Virus record (IMG/VR): IMGVR_UViG_3300042882_001046
Coordinates: 1 to 64,000 of that record
DNA: 64,000 bases
Source of the DNA: a virus
Reading direction: 5' to 3' (one strand)
The notes beneath the pieces were generated by a model. It had not been told where the DNA came from, searched no databases, and was given only the letters and a program-made list of their open reading frames with translations. The translations under genes were made by a program, and so were the position numbers. This document shows, in pieces, positions 41,649 through 60,932 of the stretch (its first letter is position 1; each line of letters starts with the position of its first letter).

Positions 41649-41656
41649 TATAAATA
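41649..41656 (-). promoter_or_regulatory. Late-type promoter box TATTTATA for the scaffold gene
   Basis: The plus strand reads TATAAATA; TATTTATA points to the ATG at 41626, 22 nt away. Confidence 0.6.
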
Positions 41657-42090: not shown

Positions 42091-42300
42091 TTATTCAATA
42101 ACTTCATCGATTTTACTTTCAGACACCGCAGTGATTCTCCAATCATGTGTGAACCCCTCGTATTTTTTTGTTACTTTCGCTTCAACGTCTGTAACTGAAA
42201 AACCTTTTACAAGTTTTTCTTCTCTGATTTTTTTAATCTTTCCTGAATTTTCATCAGGGAAATCGTACTGAATTTTTGCTACAAAATATTTTTCTTCCAT
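42091..42300 (-). CDS. DUF4494-like small protein
   Basis: 69 residues. Pattern YFVAKIQYDFPDENSGKIKK, then EEKLVKGFSVTDVEAKVTKKYEGF, matches my recollection of DUF4494, a small family found in Bacteroidetes and their phages. No catalytic residues are apparent. It begins 4 nt after the protease gene, so it is translated from the same mRNA and is probably involved in late functions. The family call is moderate. Confidence 0.6.
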   Translation of the reverse strand: MEEKYFVAKIQYDFPDENSGKIKKIREEKLVKGFSVTDVEAKVTKKYEGFTHDWRITAVSESKIDEVIE

Positions 42301-42304
42301 AATT

Positions 42305-43021
42305 TTATTTTCCTAAAAAATCGTTCAATTTTTTCATTAAGTCAACTGATTTTTCAACATAATCATTTCCTTGTTTTGTTTTTATTTCTTCGTCTAAATT
42401 TTCCTCATACTTATTTCTGTCATCAGGATTTGAAAACAAATAAGCTCCTGGTGTAGATGGTGACGAAACTAAGTCAAAACATATAAGTTCAAAATCATCT
42501 TGAACTTCATTTCTTTCTCCAACTTTTTTAAGTGAACCAACCCCTCTTGATGATACTCCCATAGTAACACCTTGTCTCATTAAATTTGCTGCAATGTCTC
42601 CTTTTGTTGAAACAATTCCTCTTTCATGAAACCCTGGAGAAGTTAATAATTTTAACTTACCCATTAAGATATTTTTGTCCCACCAAATATCTGTGATAAT
42701 GTGAGACACTCTATCTAAGTCAATAAGTGATGATTCAGGGTGATTTAATTCTGAAGTTGATAATCCTTTAGCAATGGATTGTTTATATCTTTCGGCTTCT
42801 CTTTTTAATATTCTTTCAGGATAAGTTCTACCGTTTCTATTTGGTGTATCGTATTTCTGAAGTACCGCGTAAAATTCGAAAGGATTTCTATAATCAAGAT
42901 TTGTTGCTTCTTTTAATACCTCGATGTTACGAACATCGGTTGGGGAAACAAATCCAGCATCCATTTCAATCAATATACCATGACCAATCTCGCTGGCCTC
43001 TAAAATTCTTAAATTTTTCAT
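42305..43021 (-). CDS. Prohead core protease (T4 gp21-like)
   Basis: 238 residues. NRNGRTYPERILKREAERY, SELNHPESSLIDLDRVSHII (catalytic His candidate) and VTMGVSSRGVGSLKKV (catalytic Ser candidate), then LVSSPSTPGAYLF, follow the conserved blocks of T4-type prohead proteases. It cleaves scaffold, capsid propiece and internal proteins after (L/I)-x-E during head maturation. In this window I-N-E-A in the capsid protein and several L-x-E-Q sites fit this. It has a TATTTATC box 12 nt upstream. Confidence 0.92.
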   Translation of the reverse strand: MKNLRILEASEIGHGILIEMDAGFVSPTDVRNIEVLKEATNLDYRNPFEFYAVLQKYDTPNRNGRTYPERILKREAERYKQSIAKGLSTSELNHPESSLIDLDRVSHIITDIWWDKNILMGKLKLLTSPGFHERGIVSTKGDIAANLMRQGVTMGVSSRGVGSLKKVGERNEVQDDFELICFDLVSSPSTPGAYLFSNPDDRNKYEENLDEEIKTKQGNDYVEKSVDLMKKLNDFLGK

Positions 43022-43033
43022 CTAATCTTTTAA

Positions 43034-43041
43034 GATAAATA
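43034..43041 (-). promoter_or_regulatory. Late-type promoter box TATTTATC for the protease gene
   Basis: The plus strand reads GATAAATA, 12 nt from the ATG at 43021. Confidence 0.52.
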
Positions 43042-43057
43042 TACCGTTTTGAATAGT

Positions 43058-43498
43058 TTATTGAGTAACTTCTTTTTTTGAGTTTGAAAATTCAAAGTAT
43101 TTGTTTTGTATTACGTTATTTTTGTATACCGATTTTACTATAGTTTTTACTGAATCTTTAATTTCATTACATTTAAAATCCATTTCACATAAGGTATATA
43201 AGTTAATTTCTAAATTAAAAAAAGATTTTTTTCCTTTTGATATTCCACTTGTCCTTAGGTCTAAATCAACAATACTTTTTTCTTTAAATAGTTTTGGGTT
43301 TATGGATTCGAAAACAGAATGTTTTATTTCTCTTCCTAAGTTTGAAACAACTCTGTTCCAATTATCGTAGTCATCTTTTGGTGTTACCCACGATTGAATG
43401 TTAATGTATACCGATTTTAAATTTTTAGAATCAACAGTTCCATACACAGACTTAATGGGATTGAATAGGTTAAGCTTTACACTTTTTCCTTTTTTCAT
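43058..43498 (-). CDS. Unknown protein in head module
   Basis: 146 residues, mixed alpha/beta, basic, with a central GREIKHSVFESINPKLFKEKSIVDLDLRTSGISKGKKSFFNLEINLYTL block. No recognised family. It lies between the protease gene and the divergent bS21 gene. A role near the portal or core is suggested only by location. ATG at 43498; no TATTTAT box is seen in front. Confidence 0.6.
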   Translation of the reverse strand: MKKGKSVKLNLFNPIKSVYGTVDSKNLKSVYINIQSWVTPKDDYDNWNRVVSNLGREIKHSVFESINPKLFKEKSIVDLDLRTSGISKGKKSFFNLEINLYTLCEMDFKCNEIKDSVKTIVKSVYKNNVIQNKYFEFSNSKKEVTQ

Positions 43499-43596
43499 TA
43501 ATGTTCATATTATATACGTTTATTTTGTTAATCAAAAAATACGACATATATACCTAATTGTCAAAATTTTTTTTAAATCGGAGATATTTCTAGAAT

Positions 43597-43788
43597 ATGT
43601 TAATAGTAAAAATCAACCAAGGGGAAAATCTTGAGAGAGCTCTTAAGACCCTAAAATCAAAAGTAATCAAAACAAAACAAACTCAAAAGTTGTTTGAGAA
43701 AAAAGAGTATACAAAAAAATCTGTACTTAGAAGAGCACAGATTTTAAAGGCAAAATACATACAACGCAAAAATTCAGAATTAAATTGA
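43597..43788 (+). CDS. rpsU: Ribosomal protein bS21
   Basis: 63 residues, full length. MLIVKINQGENLERALKTL, the KTKQTQKLFEKKEYTKKSV middle and RRAQILKAKYIQ tail follow bacteroidete bS21 closely (small-subunit protein near the 3' end of 16S rRNA). In flavobacteria bS21 helps hide the anti-Shine-Dalgarno sequence. A phage copy can replace or compete with the host protein on the 30S subunit. It is the only plus-strand gene inside the minus-strand head block. A GGAG at 43580-43583, 13 nt before the ATG, is notable because such sites are rare here. Confidence 0.9.
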   Translation: MLIVKINQGENLERALKTLKSKVIKTKQTQKLFEKKEYTKKSVLRRAQILKAKYIQRKNSELN

Positions 43789-44478
43789 TTCTTCTAAATT
43801 CTTTAATTTTAAAAAGTTAAGTTGGTCAAACTTCTCGAGTTTAACTTTGTCTATAGTTTCAGAAATTCTTGTTTTCATTTCTTCAGCTTCTTCTTTTTCT
43901 AAAATATTATTTAATTTAGAAATTGCACTTTCACGAATAGTTTCAAATTTAGTTTCTAAAACTTTTGTATCTTCAGACACTAATTGAAAAAATTCTTTTT
44001 TAGAGTTTTCATCTAATGTTTCTATATAATTTCTAATGGTTTGGTTTGCAACCGTAACCATAGAACTTATTGGAATATTCACACTTTCCTTAATTGATTC
44101 TTTATTAGATGTTAGAATTTTAATTAGGTTCTTTTTAGCATTAACCCTTTCAACTAAATTAATTCTTTGGCTATAAACTAAAGTATCAATATCCGAATAA
44201 TTATTTTCAGTTTTTTCAGAAACGTTTGACGGAAGTTTTACTGTTGGTAACACTTTGTTTAAAATATTGATTCCCTCTTCAATAAAATATTTAGCGTCCT
44301 GTTCACTTAAACCTTGTGGAGTACTTAACTGGTCGTATATAGTATACGCCTTAGACATAGATTTATTACTCAAAACATTGTGTTTGAATTCTCTCAATGT
44401 CTTCTTGAATTCCTTTTCATTTTTGTAGGACTCCAAAAGATTTTTTTCAATAAGGGATTTTACGGCTCCAAAGGTCAT
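43780..44478 (-). CDS. Helical head-module protein, possible core/portal accessory
   Basis: 232 residues from the ATG at 44478. A TTG at 44493 lies inside the promoter box and is therefore rejected as start. The whole protein is Lys/Glu/Asn-rich helix (KEFKKTLREFKHNVLSNKSM, ENSKKEFFQLVSEDTKVLETKFETI), likely coiled coil. It directly follows the portal gene, where T4 places small core proteins, so a prohead core role is a reasonable guess. Its end overlaps bS21 by 9 nt (convergent). Confidence 0.65.
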   Translation of the reverse strand: MTFGAVKSLIEKNLLESYKNEKEFKKTLREFKHNVLSNKSMSKAYTIYDQLSTPQGLSEQDAKYFIEEGINILNKVLPTVKLPSNVSEKTENNYSDIDTLVYSQRINLVERVNAKKNLIKILTSNKESIKESVNIPISSMVTVANQTIRNYIETLDENSKKEFFQLVSEDTKVLETKFETIRESAISKLNNILEKEEAEEMKTRISETIDKVKLEKFDQLNFLKLKNLEESI

Positions 44479-44492
44479 TTTGTTCTTTTTCA

Positions 44493-44500
44493 AATAAATA
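44493..44500 (-). promoter_or_regulatory. Late-type promoter box TATTTATT
   Basis: The plus strand reads AATAAATA. TATTTATT points to the ATG at 44478, 14 nt away, and starts right after the portal stop codon. Confidence 0.55.
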
Positions 44501-46351
44501 TTATGAATTTAATAACTTATCCAATTCTTTTGAAATTTCTCCTAAAGAATCTTGTCCGTGACCTAAATTTATCATTTCCGCCCCCTCAATTAGATTATTT
44601 TCAACCAAAATATTAAGGTCTTTCATTTTTGATTCTGGTGTTACTTCTCCTCCTGCTGGTGGAGCTTCAGCTGGTGGGGCTTCAGGTAATGGAGGTTCTC
44701 CTCCTGATAAATCACCTCCACCAAATGATGGTGGTGGTGCCAATTCTTCACCTCCATCAGGAGTTGTTGCCGCTCCTGCACTTGGTGTTGCACCTGTTGC
44801 ACTTCCATAAAGTTTATCAATATTATCAAATAAACCTGTCTTGGTAATAACAGTAGGTGTTGCCTTAAGTTCTTCCCCAACCGCTCTTTCAATTCTTTGT
44901 TGTTGTAAGTCAAGACGAACTTCTTCATCAGACCAACCAAAGATATGTTTCTTAGCCCATGTAGATGAAGTTGCCTGAATACCGTTTCCTGGGTCAGCAA
45001 CCAAATCTTTGTATAACAATACCTTTTCTTTCCAAACATCAATTTTTAATAAATCCGCTTGAGTTGATGGATTTGTTAATCCTATTGTAAAGTTTGATAA
45101 TTCATCTTCAAATCCTAATAAAAATAAGTGAACGATTGCAATTTTGTTCAACTCTGCTAACATACTCTTTTGGATTCTGTTGATTGTACGAGCGAATCTA
45201 ATGTCTTGTAGTGCCAAGTTTTTACCATCACCAACAACTTCCTCAAATCCTAAGAATGCCTTAGGTACACGAAGAGCAGTTAATAGTTTCTTTTGGATAT
45301 ATTCAATATCTGCAATTTCAGATAGGTTAGTTGCACCAGGTAATGTTGTAATTGGGTCTGGTGCTGCTGGGTCACGTACAGGGATGAAGTAATCTTGGTC
45401 AACCGCCATTTGGTTGAATCTCATATCTACATTACCTGTCTTACTATCTACAATTTGCTCTCTTTTAAATTTGTTGGCAACACGTTGTACATATGCTTCA
45501 ACATCATCGTCATTCATATTTCCAACAAATACCTTGAACATTCTTCTTTCAGGTGCTCTTGATGTACGATAAATCAACATCGCGTCTTCCGATAATAAAA
45601 GTTGTTTCCAAATTCTTCTTGCTTTTTCCAACATAGAAGTACCATAAGGAAGTTTTCTATCATCACCCAATAATCTAAAGTGAGCAATTTCCCATGATTG
45701 GAATTCCATGTTTTTGTTCTTCCAAGTGAAATGTAGAGCCTTTCTATCCTTATCAACTTCTTGTTTTACGTCCGTTGCAATTTTACCACTTGCACCTACC
45801 TCATGTCTTTCAATTTCAATTGTAGGTAATTGTTGTACTCCAACAATTCCTTTTTCAGGGTCTAATTTTAAATAAACAAAGTTATCACCGTACTTACAAG
45901 TGTTTCTAGTCCACATTGGTAAGTTAGTGTTGATGTCTAAGGCGTTGTTAAATAAGTCGGCCAACACACCTTTAATTCTTTTTGATTCTGAATATATCTG
46001 TAAGATGAATCCATCTTCATTAGTGGTTGTTGATTCCTCAGCGTAGATATCTAATGCGGCAGAAATCTCAGGAGTATACTCCATTGATTCATAATCATAC
46101 TGAGCCGATAATCTTGTTGGTTCATAATAAATTGCTTGTGAATAAAGGTTGTTTTCTACCTTTGTCCACTGATTAGTAAGATAATAAGTTTGTTGTGCCT
46201 GAAGTTTTTCTTTCTCGTATTCTTCTCTACTTTTTGTGCGTAGAAGTTCCTTTTTATCAAACTTGAATGTTGGATAATCCTGTTGTAAAAGTGAGTTCGG
46301 TCCAAATGTTTGTGACAGTCGTTGCCAAACCGTCATATTCTGTTCTGCCAT
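44501..46351 (-). CDS. Portal protein (T4 gp20-like)
   Basis: 616 residues. Blocks typical of T4-type portals: SRAPERRMFKVFVGNM, FIPVRDPAAPDPITTLPGATNLSEIADIEYIQKKLLTALRVPKAFLG and the RTINRIQKSMLAELNKIAIVHL segment. The C-terminal ~120 residues add a Gly/Pro/Ala-rich linker (PPSFGGGDLSGGEPPLPEAPP) and an acidic tail, longer than in T4. It forms the twelve-fold ring at the head vertex through which DNA enters. It follows the terminase gene and has a TATTTATA box ~28 nt upstream. Confidence 0.93.
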   Translation of the reverse strand: MAEQNMTVWQRLSQTFGPNSLLQQDYPTFKFDKKELLRTKSREEYEKEKLQAQQTYYLTNQWTKVENNLYSQAIYYEPTRLSAQYDYESMEYTPEISAALDIYAEESTTTNEDGFILQIYSESKRIKGVLADLFNNALDINTNLPMWTRNTCKYGDNFVYLKLDPEKGIVGVQQLPTIEIERHEVGASGKIATDVKQEVDKDRKALHFTWKNKNMEFQSWEIAHFRLLGDDRKLPYGTSMLEKARRIWKQLLLSEDAMLIYRTSRAPERRMFKVFVGNMNDDDVEAYVQRVANKFKREQIVDSKTGNVDMRFNQMAVDQDYFIPVRDPAAPDPITTLPGATNLSEIADIEYIQKKLLTALRVPKAFLGFEEVVGDGKNLALQDIRFARTINRIQKSMLAELNKIAIVHLFLLGFEDELSNFTIGLTNPSTQADLLKIDVWKEKVLLYKDLVADPGNGIQATSSTWAKKHIFGWSDEEVRLDLQQQRIERAVGEELKATPTVITKTGLFDNIDKLYGSATGATPSAGAATTPDGGEELAPPPSFGGGDLSGGEPPLPEAPPAEAPPAGGEVTPESKMKDLNILVENNLIEGAEMINLGHGQDSLGEISKELDKLLNS

Positions 46352-46379: not shown

Positions 46380-46387
46380 TATAAATA
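46380..46387 (-). promoter_or_regulatory. Late-type promoter box TATTTATA for the portal gene
   Basis: The plus strand reads TATAAATA, just beyond the terminase stop codon and 28 nt from the portal ATG at 46351. Confidence 0.58.
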
Positions 46388-46388
46388 G

Positions 46389-48149
46389 TTATTTGGCACC
46401 AAATAACCACCCATATTTTTGGTAATCGGCTTTGGACGCCCCGTTATTCGTAAGGTGGGGGTCTCTTCCCATTTGGGGAACCATCGGATTAAAAAATTCT
46501 GACGTGTTTTTATTTTCACTCATAACAGTAGACCATGAATTCAACATTGCCTTTGTATGATTAACAACTTTACTTAAAGACGCAAATGATTTTTCTGCAA
46601 TGTATATTGCCATAGATAAACCCATTATACAGTCATCGTGTTGTCCTTTTTGGTGGTCAGGTCTTCCGTTTATGTAAACAAAAGTATTCATTTCGTTGTA
46701 AGTCCTATGAGAATATATTTTAAACCCGTGTCTAACCGCTTCCTCAAATGCCGCAATAATTTGAACCCTTTTTGTGTTAAAATTAATACCAGGTATTTTG
46801 TCATTAATTTTTGGGTCCCATTTCCATTTGTTTGTTGTATCAACACCATCAACATATAATCCCCCTTCGTATTGAAGTTCTTGCATTTTTCTTGCGGTTG
46901 AAACTCCCATACCACCTGTAATATCAATTACACAATAAGCATTATACATTGTACCCCACTTGTAGGCAATTTCAGCTAATATATCTGGAGGTATTTTTCC
47001 AACATATTCAAAAACTTGTTCTCTATCGTCAAAATCAATAATTTCTATTGATGAAAAATCTTCTGAATCTCCTCTTGAAACGTCGACACCCATTACGTAC
47101 TTATGTCCATTAACTGGTTCTTTAAAAATCCACAAGGAATTACCCATCAATTTTGCTTGAGGGTCTCTTAATTGATTTTTAGAAATATTCTGCATTAACT
47201 CAGAATCAAATACGTTATCCCCTGAACCCAAGAAATTACATTCCAACTCCTGAGCCACTTTACGTCTATCGTATTTAAGTTTTTTTACCATACTCTCAAA
47301 CCATGAAGAACACGGTTTGTACCCTTGCTCAACATAATTTTTTACAACACTATGGTCTCTCTCATATGGATTATCCATAGATAAGTCTATCAAAACATCA
47401 ACTGGATAATCTTCCCTGTTCAATAGATAATGAACTAAATCATTTGTCTTAACCATGTAAAGGTCTTTTGTATATCGAGGGTCTCTGAACCAAAACATTT
47501 CAGAGATTTTGAAATCGTTCATACCTCGTAAGGCTTGGTCATAAATTTCGTAATAGATTGGGTCGTAACCGTTTGGTGTGGATACAACAATAACTTTACC
47601 TCCCGTTGATAGTGAGGCCATACACGCTGACCAGAAATCTCCGTCAGCCTCGATAAACGCCGCCTCATCAAAAATAAGAATGGTTGGGGTATATCCCCTC
47701 AAAGCATCTTTTGAAGTTGCAACCGCCTTAACTTCACATCCGTTGTTAAGTTTAAAGTGTCTTTGTGAATTTTTTTCCACAGAGAATCCAATACCAACCC
47801 AAGCAGGCCATTGTTCTGTAAAACTTCTAACCTTATTTGCCATCTCCATGGAGGTATCCAACTTGTTGGCAATGATTAGAATTTTTTCAGGTTTTTCTTT
47901 TCTTGCAAATGCAAGTTTTTTTGACGCCCAAGCGGCTGTAACTGTAGATACACCTGCCTGACGATACTTCAAGGCGATGTTTTCGTTGTAGTTTTCGTAA
48001 TCTTCTAATAGGGAAACTTGGTCTGGAAATAAATCCAATGGAACATACTTAGAGACTGTGTTGTCGTATGTTTGTAAATAAGTACGAAGTGCGTAAGGAG
48101 TACTCCTCATACACTTCGTATATTCTATAATTAATTGTTCTTTAGTCAC
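46389..48149 (-). CDS. Large terminase subunit (T4 gp17-like)
   Basis: 586 residues. ATPase part: Walker A-like ALKYRQAGVSTVTAAW (59-74) and Walker B TILIFDEAAF (156-165). Nuclease part: KYVMGVDVSRGDSEDFSSIEIID (RNase H-like, first Asp ligand), VIDITGGMG and DDCIMGLSMAIYIAE with later acidic ligands. It powers DNA packaging and cuts concatemers. The frame begins with GTG at 48149, 8 nt after the upstream gene's stop; no ATG in frame is close by. The Walker A departs from the classic GxxGxGK form, as is common in T4-like terminases. Confidence 0.95.
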   Translation of the reverse strand: MTKEQLIIEYTKCMRSTPYALRTYLQTYDNTVSKYVPLDLFPDQVSLLEDYENYNENIALKYRQAGVSTVTAAWASKKLAFARKEKPEKILIIANKLDTSMEMANKVRSFTEQWPAWVGIGFSVEKNSQRHFKLNNGCEVKAVATSKDALRGYTPTILIFDEAAFIEADGDFWSACMASLSTGGKVIVVSTPNGYDPIYYEIYDQALRGMNDFKISEMFWFRDPRYTKDLYMVKTNDLVHYLLNREDYPVDVLIDLSMDNPYERDHSVVKNYVEQGYKPCSSWFESMVKKLKYDRRKVAQELECNFLGSGDNVFDSELMQNISKNQLRDPQAKLMGNSLWIFKEPVNGHKYVMGVDVSRGDSEDFSSIEIIDFDDREQVFEYVGKIPPDILAEIAYKWGTMYNAYCVIDITGGMGVSTARKMQELQYEGGLYVDGVDTTNKWKWDPKINDKIPGINFNTKRVQIIAAFEEAVRHGFKIYSHRTYNEMNTFVYINGRPDHQKGQHDDCIMGLSMAIYIAEKSFASLSKVVNHTKAMLNSWSTVMSENKNTSEFFNPMVPQMGRDPHLTNNGASKADYQKYGWLFGAK

Positions 48150-60509: not shown

Positions 60510-60932
60510 GGGGATGAAATGGTATCGATTGGCATTGTTGGGGATAAGTGGCACGTAGTCAGAATTCATCTATGACTTTAATCTATGGTGAAGACAATTA
60601 GCTGGCAATACTTTTGCTAAGATGGCGACTTTAGGTTTAACTAGAGAAGCTTCTGTTGTAGCTGCCTAAGAGGTAGTCACAACCGTTACTCCAACCAAGT
60701 TGGTGTAACCTCGGGTCGATTAGGACGTTAACCTAGGAACAGAAGTCCAATATACGGGTCACAGGTCAGAGCTCGTTTAAAATAATTCTGAGACCAGGTT
60801 GTTTGTAAGTTTGGTTCCCACATACATCAAACTTAATATTTCGGAACGTTGAGAAACAACGTTGTACTAAACGTGTAGTCATTTATTGTCAAAGTGAGCA
60901 AGACGCGGGTTCGACTCCCGCCATCTCCACCA
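60510..60932 (+). ncRNA. ssrA: Transfer-messenger RNA (tmRNA) with long tag
   Basis: The 5' GGGGATG pairs with 3' CATCTCC, giving the G3-U70 wobble of alanine-type tmRNA; the T arm is GCGGG-TTCGACT-CCCGC (60905-60921) and ACCA is encoded at 60929-60932. A tag reading frame from GGC at 60604 runs to TAA at 60667: 21 codons starting GNTFAK and ending ASVVAA. A hairpin with CCAAC/GTTGG follows. tmRNA with SmpB rescues stalled ribosomes and adds a degradation tag. The tag is about twice the usual length. A cysteine-cluster gene begins 12 nt downstream. Confidence 0.95.

Follow-up and report, generated by a model that had tools for sequence, protein, structure and literature searches.

Genes for the ribosomal protein bS21 are common in phages and their purpose is unsettled. 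The closest described examples are those of the freshwater Bacteroidetes jumbo phages of Chen et al. (2022; PMC9723584). According to the main text of that paper, bS21 sits within the TerL-portal-protease-MCP module but on the opposite strand, carries Tyr54 or another aromatic residue at this position, and forms a clade apart from the bacterial proteins. The metatranscriptomes presented there indicate late expression and separate transcripts for these genes. No analysis of Shine-Dalgarno (SD) sequences upstream of phage bS21, of promoter boxes, of antisense terminators or of tmRNA was found in the main text.

Two further systems are relevant. In Flavobacterium johnsoniae, rpsU is autoregulated by ribosomes that lack bS21, a process that needs an extended SD with a pairing energy below -13 kcal/mol (McNutt et al. 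2023; PMC9976891). The bS21 of the Pelagibacter phage HTVC008M enters E. coli 70S ribosomes, and in assays in vitro with E. coli components these ribosomes show almost no activity (Mizuno et al. 2019; PMC6375957).

The window analyzed here is a stretch of 64,000 nucleotides from a viral record of 118,268 bases. The source virus is large, comes from freshwater and has Bacteroidota bacteria as hosts. The record is a 118-kb fragment, related contigs are 317-326 kb long, and the genomes in the main text of Chen et al. (PMC9723584) measure 293-331 kb. Judged from its sequence, the bS21 in the window is the phage bS21 of the Bacteroidetes jumbo-phage clade already described, and its kind is not new. 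The new element is a conserved hairpin of the intrinsic-terminator type on the antisense strand of the gene. We consider it probable that the gene specifies a late-expressed phage bS21 that has no SD, is free of the host feedback and likely resides in the 30S subunit, while its antisense strand acts as an operon terminator.

The bS21 gene and its phage clade

The open reading frame at 43597-43788 on the plus strand encodes a complete bS21 of 63 amino acids with an ATG start. It matches the Pfam family Ribosomal_S21 (PF01165) with 35.2 bits, as a full-length domain above the curated cut-off of 27, and its alignment with F. johnsoniae bS21 (PDB 7jil; E=2e-10) runs end to end, beginning at residue 1 with an identical start. 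The original prediction of a full-length bS21 is thus borne out. The gene calls were made with a simple script, leaving some start codons uncertain, and the start of bS21 is secured by homology. The description of the protein as flavobacterial-type holds as far as its Bacteroidota character is concerned, but the protein is only about 49% identical to the Flavobacterium-type protein (28/57 aligned residues) and belongs to a separate phage clade.

For the phylogeny against host bS21, proposed earlier as a check, a tree was built of 51 phage proteins together with 60 from bacteria and 3 from huge phages. All of the phage set falls into one clade, supported at 100/100 and set apart by a long stem of 2.41 changes per column, in agreement with the separate phage clade in the main text of Chen et al. 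(PMC9723584). The finer branching is not resolved because the alignment is short. The aromatic residue 54 also agrees with that account. Tyr54 of the window protein occupies the equivalent position in F. johnsoniae bS21 (PDB 7jil), and the 51 distinct phage proteins have Tyr (37), His (13) or Phe (1) here, so that an aromatic-type residue is present in 51/51. The phage and host proteins belong to one family, in which residue 54 has been implicated in hiding the anti-SD (PMC9976891), and the feature expected for such hiding is therefore kept in the phage proteins.

The genes on either side of bS21 are all on the minus strand, making it the sole plus-strand gene among the head genes, as had been noted from the sequence at the outset. 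The order is large terminase (TerL, T4 type; 46389-48149), T4-type portal protein (44501-46351), a conserved hypothetical protein (43780-44493), bS21, a second conserved hypothetical protein (43058-43498), prohead protease (Peptidase_S77; 42305-43021) and DUF4494. The first hypothetical gene is convergent with bS21 and overlaps its 3' end by 9 bases; the second is divergent from it. The small DUF4494 protein next to the protease (42091-42300, minus strand) is conserved across the whole phage group. Related contigs with a flank long enough to judge have the identical gene order, again with bS21 on the opposite strand. The same placement, between two hypothetical genes within the TerL-portal-protease-MCP module, is given for clades a-e in the main text of Chen et al. 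(PMC9723584), where the occurrence of bS21 in large phages, mentioned in the original prediction, was already published.

The region upstream of bS21

The sequence GGAG is situated at 43580-43583 on the plus strand, 13 nt before the bS21 ATG, exactly where it had been seen originally. It had been regarded as rare in the window and as a hint of autoregulation through the anti-SD tail. Its pairing turns out to be unexceptional, and the hint of autoregulation is not upheld. In a duplex calculation its pairing with the 16S tail amounts to -6.6 kcal/mol, seventh in rank among 150 genes; of 150 mock windows, 22 pair with -6.5 kcal/mol or more strongly. GGAG is present in only 2 of the 40 distinct bS21 upstream sequences of the clade, and single-base differences remove it in close relatives (L011; L053 compared with L044). 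Over these 40 sequences the pairing energy has a median of -0.6 kcal/mol and a best value of -7.2, with none at or below -8. The energies refer to one 16S tail and one alternative, taken in place of the tail of the true host. For 43 further, more distant phage bS21 upstream sequences the median is -0.8 kcal/mol, and a strong SD is found in 1/43.

The host genes behave differently. A profile search with the phage bS21 alignment returned only 4 bacterial loci, and the set of host rpsU genes was collected by a separate genome search. With the same duplex calculation, 11 close flavobacterial rpsU genes (L161-L171) gave -17.5 to -19.7 kcal/mol. Two hosts with an altered type of anti-SD gave -11.9 kcal/mol for rpsU when the altered tail was used. 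Unlike host rpsU (PMC9976891), the phage gene has no extended SD, which would place phage bS21 outside the SD-dependent feedback that controls the host gene.

It is highly improbable that GGAG pairs with the 16S tail so that phage bS21 autoregulates its own translation in the manner of host rpsU. The motif does occur in the window and in near-identical relatives, host rpsU is itself autoregulated through its SD (PMC9976891), and an unrelated phage lineage carries a more strongly pairing sequence before bS21. However, the pairing of GGAG is too weak compared with the published threshold of below -13 kcal/mol, its spacing is 13 nt, and it sits immediately beside a conserved promoter-like box. 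As an autoregulatory SD, GGAG was rejected for its non-conservation, which the original prediction had itself named as a ground for refutation, and for its weak pairing compared with host rpsU.

The unrelated lineage is that of a 735-kb phage (L202 3001-3198, LR756501; L208), in which AAAGGAGG just upstream of bS21 pairs with -12.1 kcal/mol. It is an exception and, from its sequence, a candidate for an SD-controlled phage bS21. In an IMG/VR contig of 72 kb (L244), bS21 matches the host type with the altered anti-SD (UCUCA) and has the cognate TGAGATG upstream; this contig is perhaps of bacterial and not of phage origin.

Weak pairing is a general property of the genes in this phage. The SD windows of the 150 called phage genes are weaker than mock windows, with means of -2.07 and -3.39 kcal/mol, respectively, and this avoidance was repeated in two related genomes. 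SD windows weaker than mock windows are also reported for Flavobacteriales hosts. The bS21 mRNA would thus be translated without an SD, as are most genes of the phage and of its hosts.

The conserved element upstream of bS21 is a different one. Of all 7-mers, TATTTAT shows the greatest excess in the region 5-36 bases before the genes of this genome (27 genes, 2.5 expected), and it is also the top upstream 7-mer in two related genomes (45 compared with 4.4 expected, and 39 compared with 3.4). Although intergenic sequence makes up only 11% of this genome, 45 of the 66 occurrences are intergenic. The box is invariant, at near-fixed positions, in the distinct orthologous upstream sequences of the portal gene (39/39; 46381-46387, minus strand, in the window), the protease gene (48/48; 43035-43041, minus strand) and the scaffold gene (31/31); a further example in the window is at 41650-41656. 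The bS21 version, TATTTCTA, at 43585-43592 on the plus strand and at -12 from the ATG, is one base off TATTTAT. Among bS21 relatives 38/46 fit a TATTTnTA-type pattern and 8/46 are weaker matches; some have a perfect TATTTATA at about -36.

By its distribution, TATTTAT is probably the late promoter of this phage group. It resembles the late promoters of T4 (PMC2988020) in being a single AT-rich, TATA-like box with no conserved -35 element, placed at late genes on either strand, whereas its sequence is not that of T4. We infer the transcription starts, and hence the leader lengths, by analogy with T4-type late promoters, for which the box is expected about one helical turn upstream of mapped starts. 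Measured from the start codon, the boxes group at -11 to -13 and again at around -20 to -30, with few between. Going by this spacing, the late mRNAs could be of two sorts, leaderless and with a short leader; the leaderless sort is suggested by the many start codons that have a box 11-13 nt in front of them. GGAG directly abuts the upstream side of the bS21 box and would therefore lie outside the mRNA if the box is the promoter. Accepting the box as a probable promoter, bS21 would be a late transcript, read from a box of its own close before the ATG and convergently to the head operon. Sharing a promoter-like box with the late structural genes agrees with high transcription of bS21 alongside them, a trait of the bS21 jumbo phages of Chen et al. 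(PMC9723584). With this box, late transcription units could be predicted in these uncultured phages.

Several other elements were considered. As a window-wide motif AGATATTTNTARNAT was rejected, having 22 matches compared with 18 expected; the shorter core TATTTAT is the enriched element. A crude expectation-maximization (EM) motif search gave no clean motif, and it was the 7-mer enrichment that found TATTTAT. The host-type two-part promoter TTTG-N18-21-TAnnTTTG has no match upstream of bS21. GTCAAAA on the plus strand (TTTTGAC on the minus strand; 43560-43566) is unchanged in 49/50 distinct intergenic sequences. Together with a T-tract it was considered as a phage-wide promoter and dismissed, showing no enrichment in the window; it is better read as the probable -35/-33 box of the promoter of the divergent gene, with TATTTT at 43536-43541. 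A second enriched upstream element, TATCTTTG, occurs 7 times compared with 0.08 expected in the upstream regions of the window and of L191-L193. It resembles the host -7 box TAnnTTTG and, on this likeness, probably marks promoters read by a host sigma factor.

The antisense strand of bS21

At 43716-43745, inside bS21, the minus strand can form a hairpin of 12 bp with a run of T behind it. This hairpin faces the operon of TerL, portal and hypothetical protein, which converges on bS21 and overlaps it. Such a hairpin is present antisense to 59 of 66 distinct bS21 regions, compared with 1 of 120 antisense control stretches of other genes; in the other 7 bS21 regions the scan misses it. Synonymous recodings of the bS21 peptide fold much less stably than the hairpin (mean z -3.85), and the named structure is 90.1% paired, compared with 22-60% in slid controls. 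Double-sided covariation is modest, being seen at 3 pairs, a count that 50 of 500 shuffles reach. These sequence properties make the hairpin a probable intrinsic terminator of the convergent operon, so that the antisense strand of the bS21 coding sequence would end TerL-portal transcription.

The same bases form a hairpin in the sense bS21 mRNA as well, with a mean of -8.87 kcal/mol, and the conserved structure could in principle serve there for stability or as a regulatory site. This hairpin is the weaker one, the minus strand being the more stable in 32 of 38 cases. Read as minus-strand RNA, 411/456 cells are paired, 53 of them as G.U; read as plus-strand RNA, 361/456 are paired, with 3 G.U. 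Most of the 53 minus-strand G.U pairs correspond to A.C mismatches in the plus-strand RNA. Moreover, the T-run lies downstream on the minus strand only. Several more distant relatives in which bS21 is likewise oriented have their hairpin instead immediately behind bS21, between it and the convergent gene, with A and T runs on its flanks. A function in the sense mRNA in place of termination of the opposite operon is accordingly improbable.

Termination of the TerL-portal operon, which we prefer, would help to explain the fixed position and orientation of bS21. It would provide a concrete reason for the gene to stay in an otherwise odd orientation.

Phage bS21 and the ribosome

The residues expected to contact the 30S platform and the 3' tail of 16S rRNA are kept, residue 54 being the one compared, and the phage protein most likely supplements or replaces host bS21. 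It would join the 30S subunit in place of or beside the host protein and keep the anti-SD hidden. The period in which it tops up or replaces host bS21 would most likely be that of late, SD-less translation. We infer this entry into 30S from knowledge of the family and from the behavior of HTVC008M bS21 in E. coli (PMC6375957). HTVC008M is similar to the present virus in being a large myovirus that encodes bS21; it differs in that its host belongs to a different phylum and in that its ribosome entry was shown in E. coli. The near inactivity of the resulting ribosomes implies that incorporation need not mean useful translation.

A function outside translation, for instance as a virion or RNA-binding protein, is suggested by the position of bS21 in the head module, and packaging into the virion is raised in the main text of Chen et al. 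(PMC9723584). We attach little probability to it, as the protein is a full-length member of its family with a conserved ribosome-contact residue 54, and the bS21 of another phage enters 70S ribosomes in E. coli (PMC6375957).

A ribosomal role can be carried one step further. Because host rpsU requires ribosomes free of bS21 as well as a strong SD (PMC9976891), a phage bS21 made without an SD and retaining the aromatic residue 54 could fill bS21-free 30S subunits, hide the anti-SD again, switch off the SD-dependent translation of host rpsU and gradually replace the host protein. This extends the preferred reading rather than competing strictly with it, and is possible but doubtful. Ten positions that are nearly fixed in phage bS21 differ in close hosts (13, 18, 21, 23, 24, 27, 28, 30, 41 and 50, mostly in the N-terminal half), and the phage protein may consequently not hide the anti-SD in the manner of the host. 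A combined form, in which the phage takes over the host bS21 loop by converting the ribosome pool to phage bS21, and the gene doubles as a two-strand element terminating the capsid operon, is, as far as the sequences indicate, unlikely. The near-universal lack of a strong SD in Bacteroidota-phage bS21 genes leads to the prediction that the phage protein is made independently of the host feedback and should repress host rpsU.

Other components related to translation are encoded by the virus. A complete tmRNA gene is located at 60510-60932 on the plus strand of the window (Rfam RF00023, 98.6 bits), for which ARAGORN gives the tag GNTFAKMATLGLTREASVVAA. Phage tmRNAs are already known and occur in about 2% of the genomes of phages (PMC9004378). 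The present record is one of 8, out of 12 related phage records, with a tmRNA match that exceeds the gathering score, and the tags of the phage group, where readable, end in -VAA, -VGA or -VTA. A single cluster outside the window (G000:C1 72299-80840; L191 8299-16840) contains 23 tRNA genes that cover all 20 amino acids.
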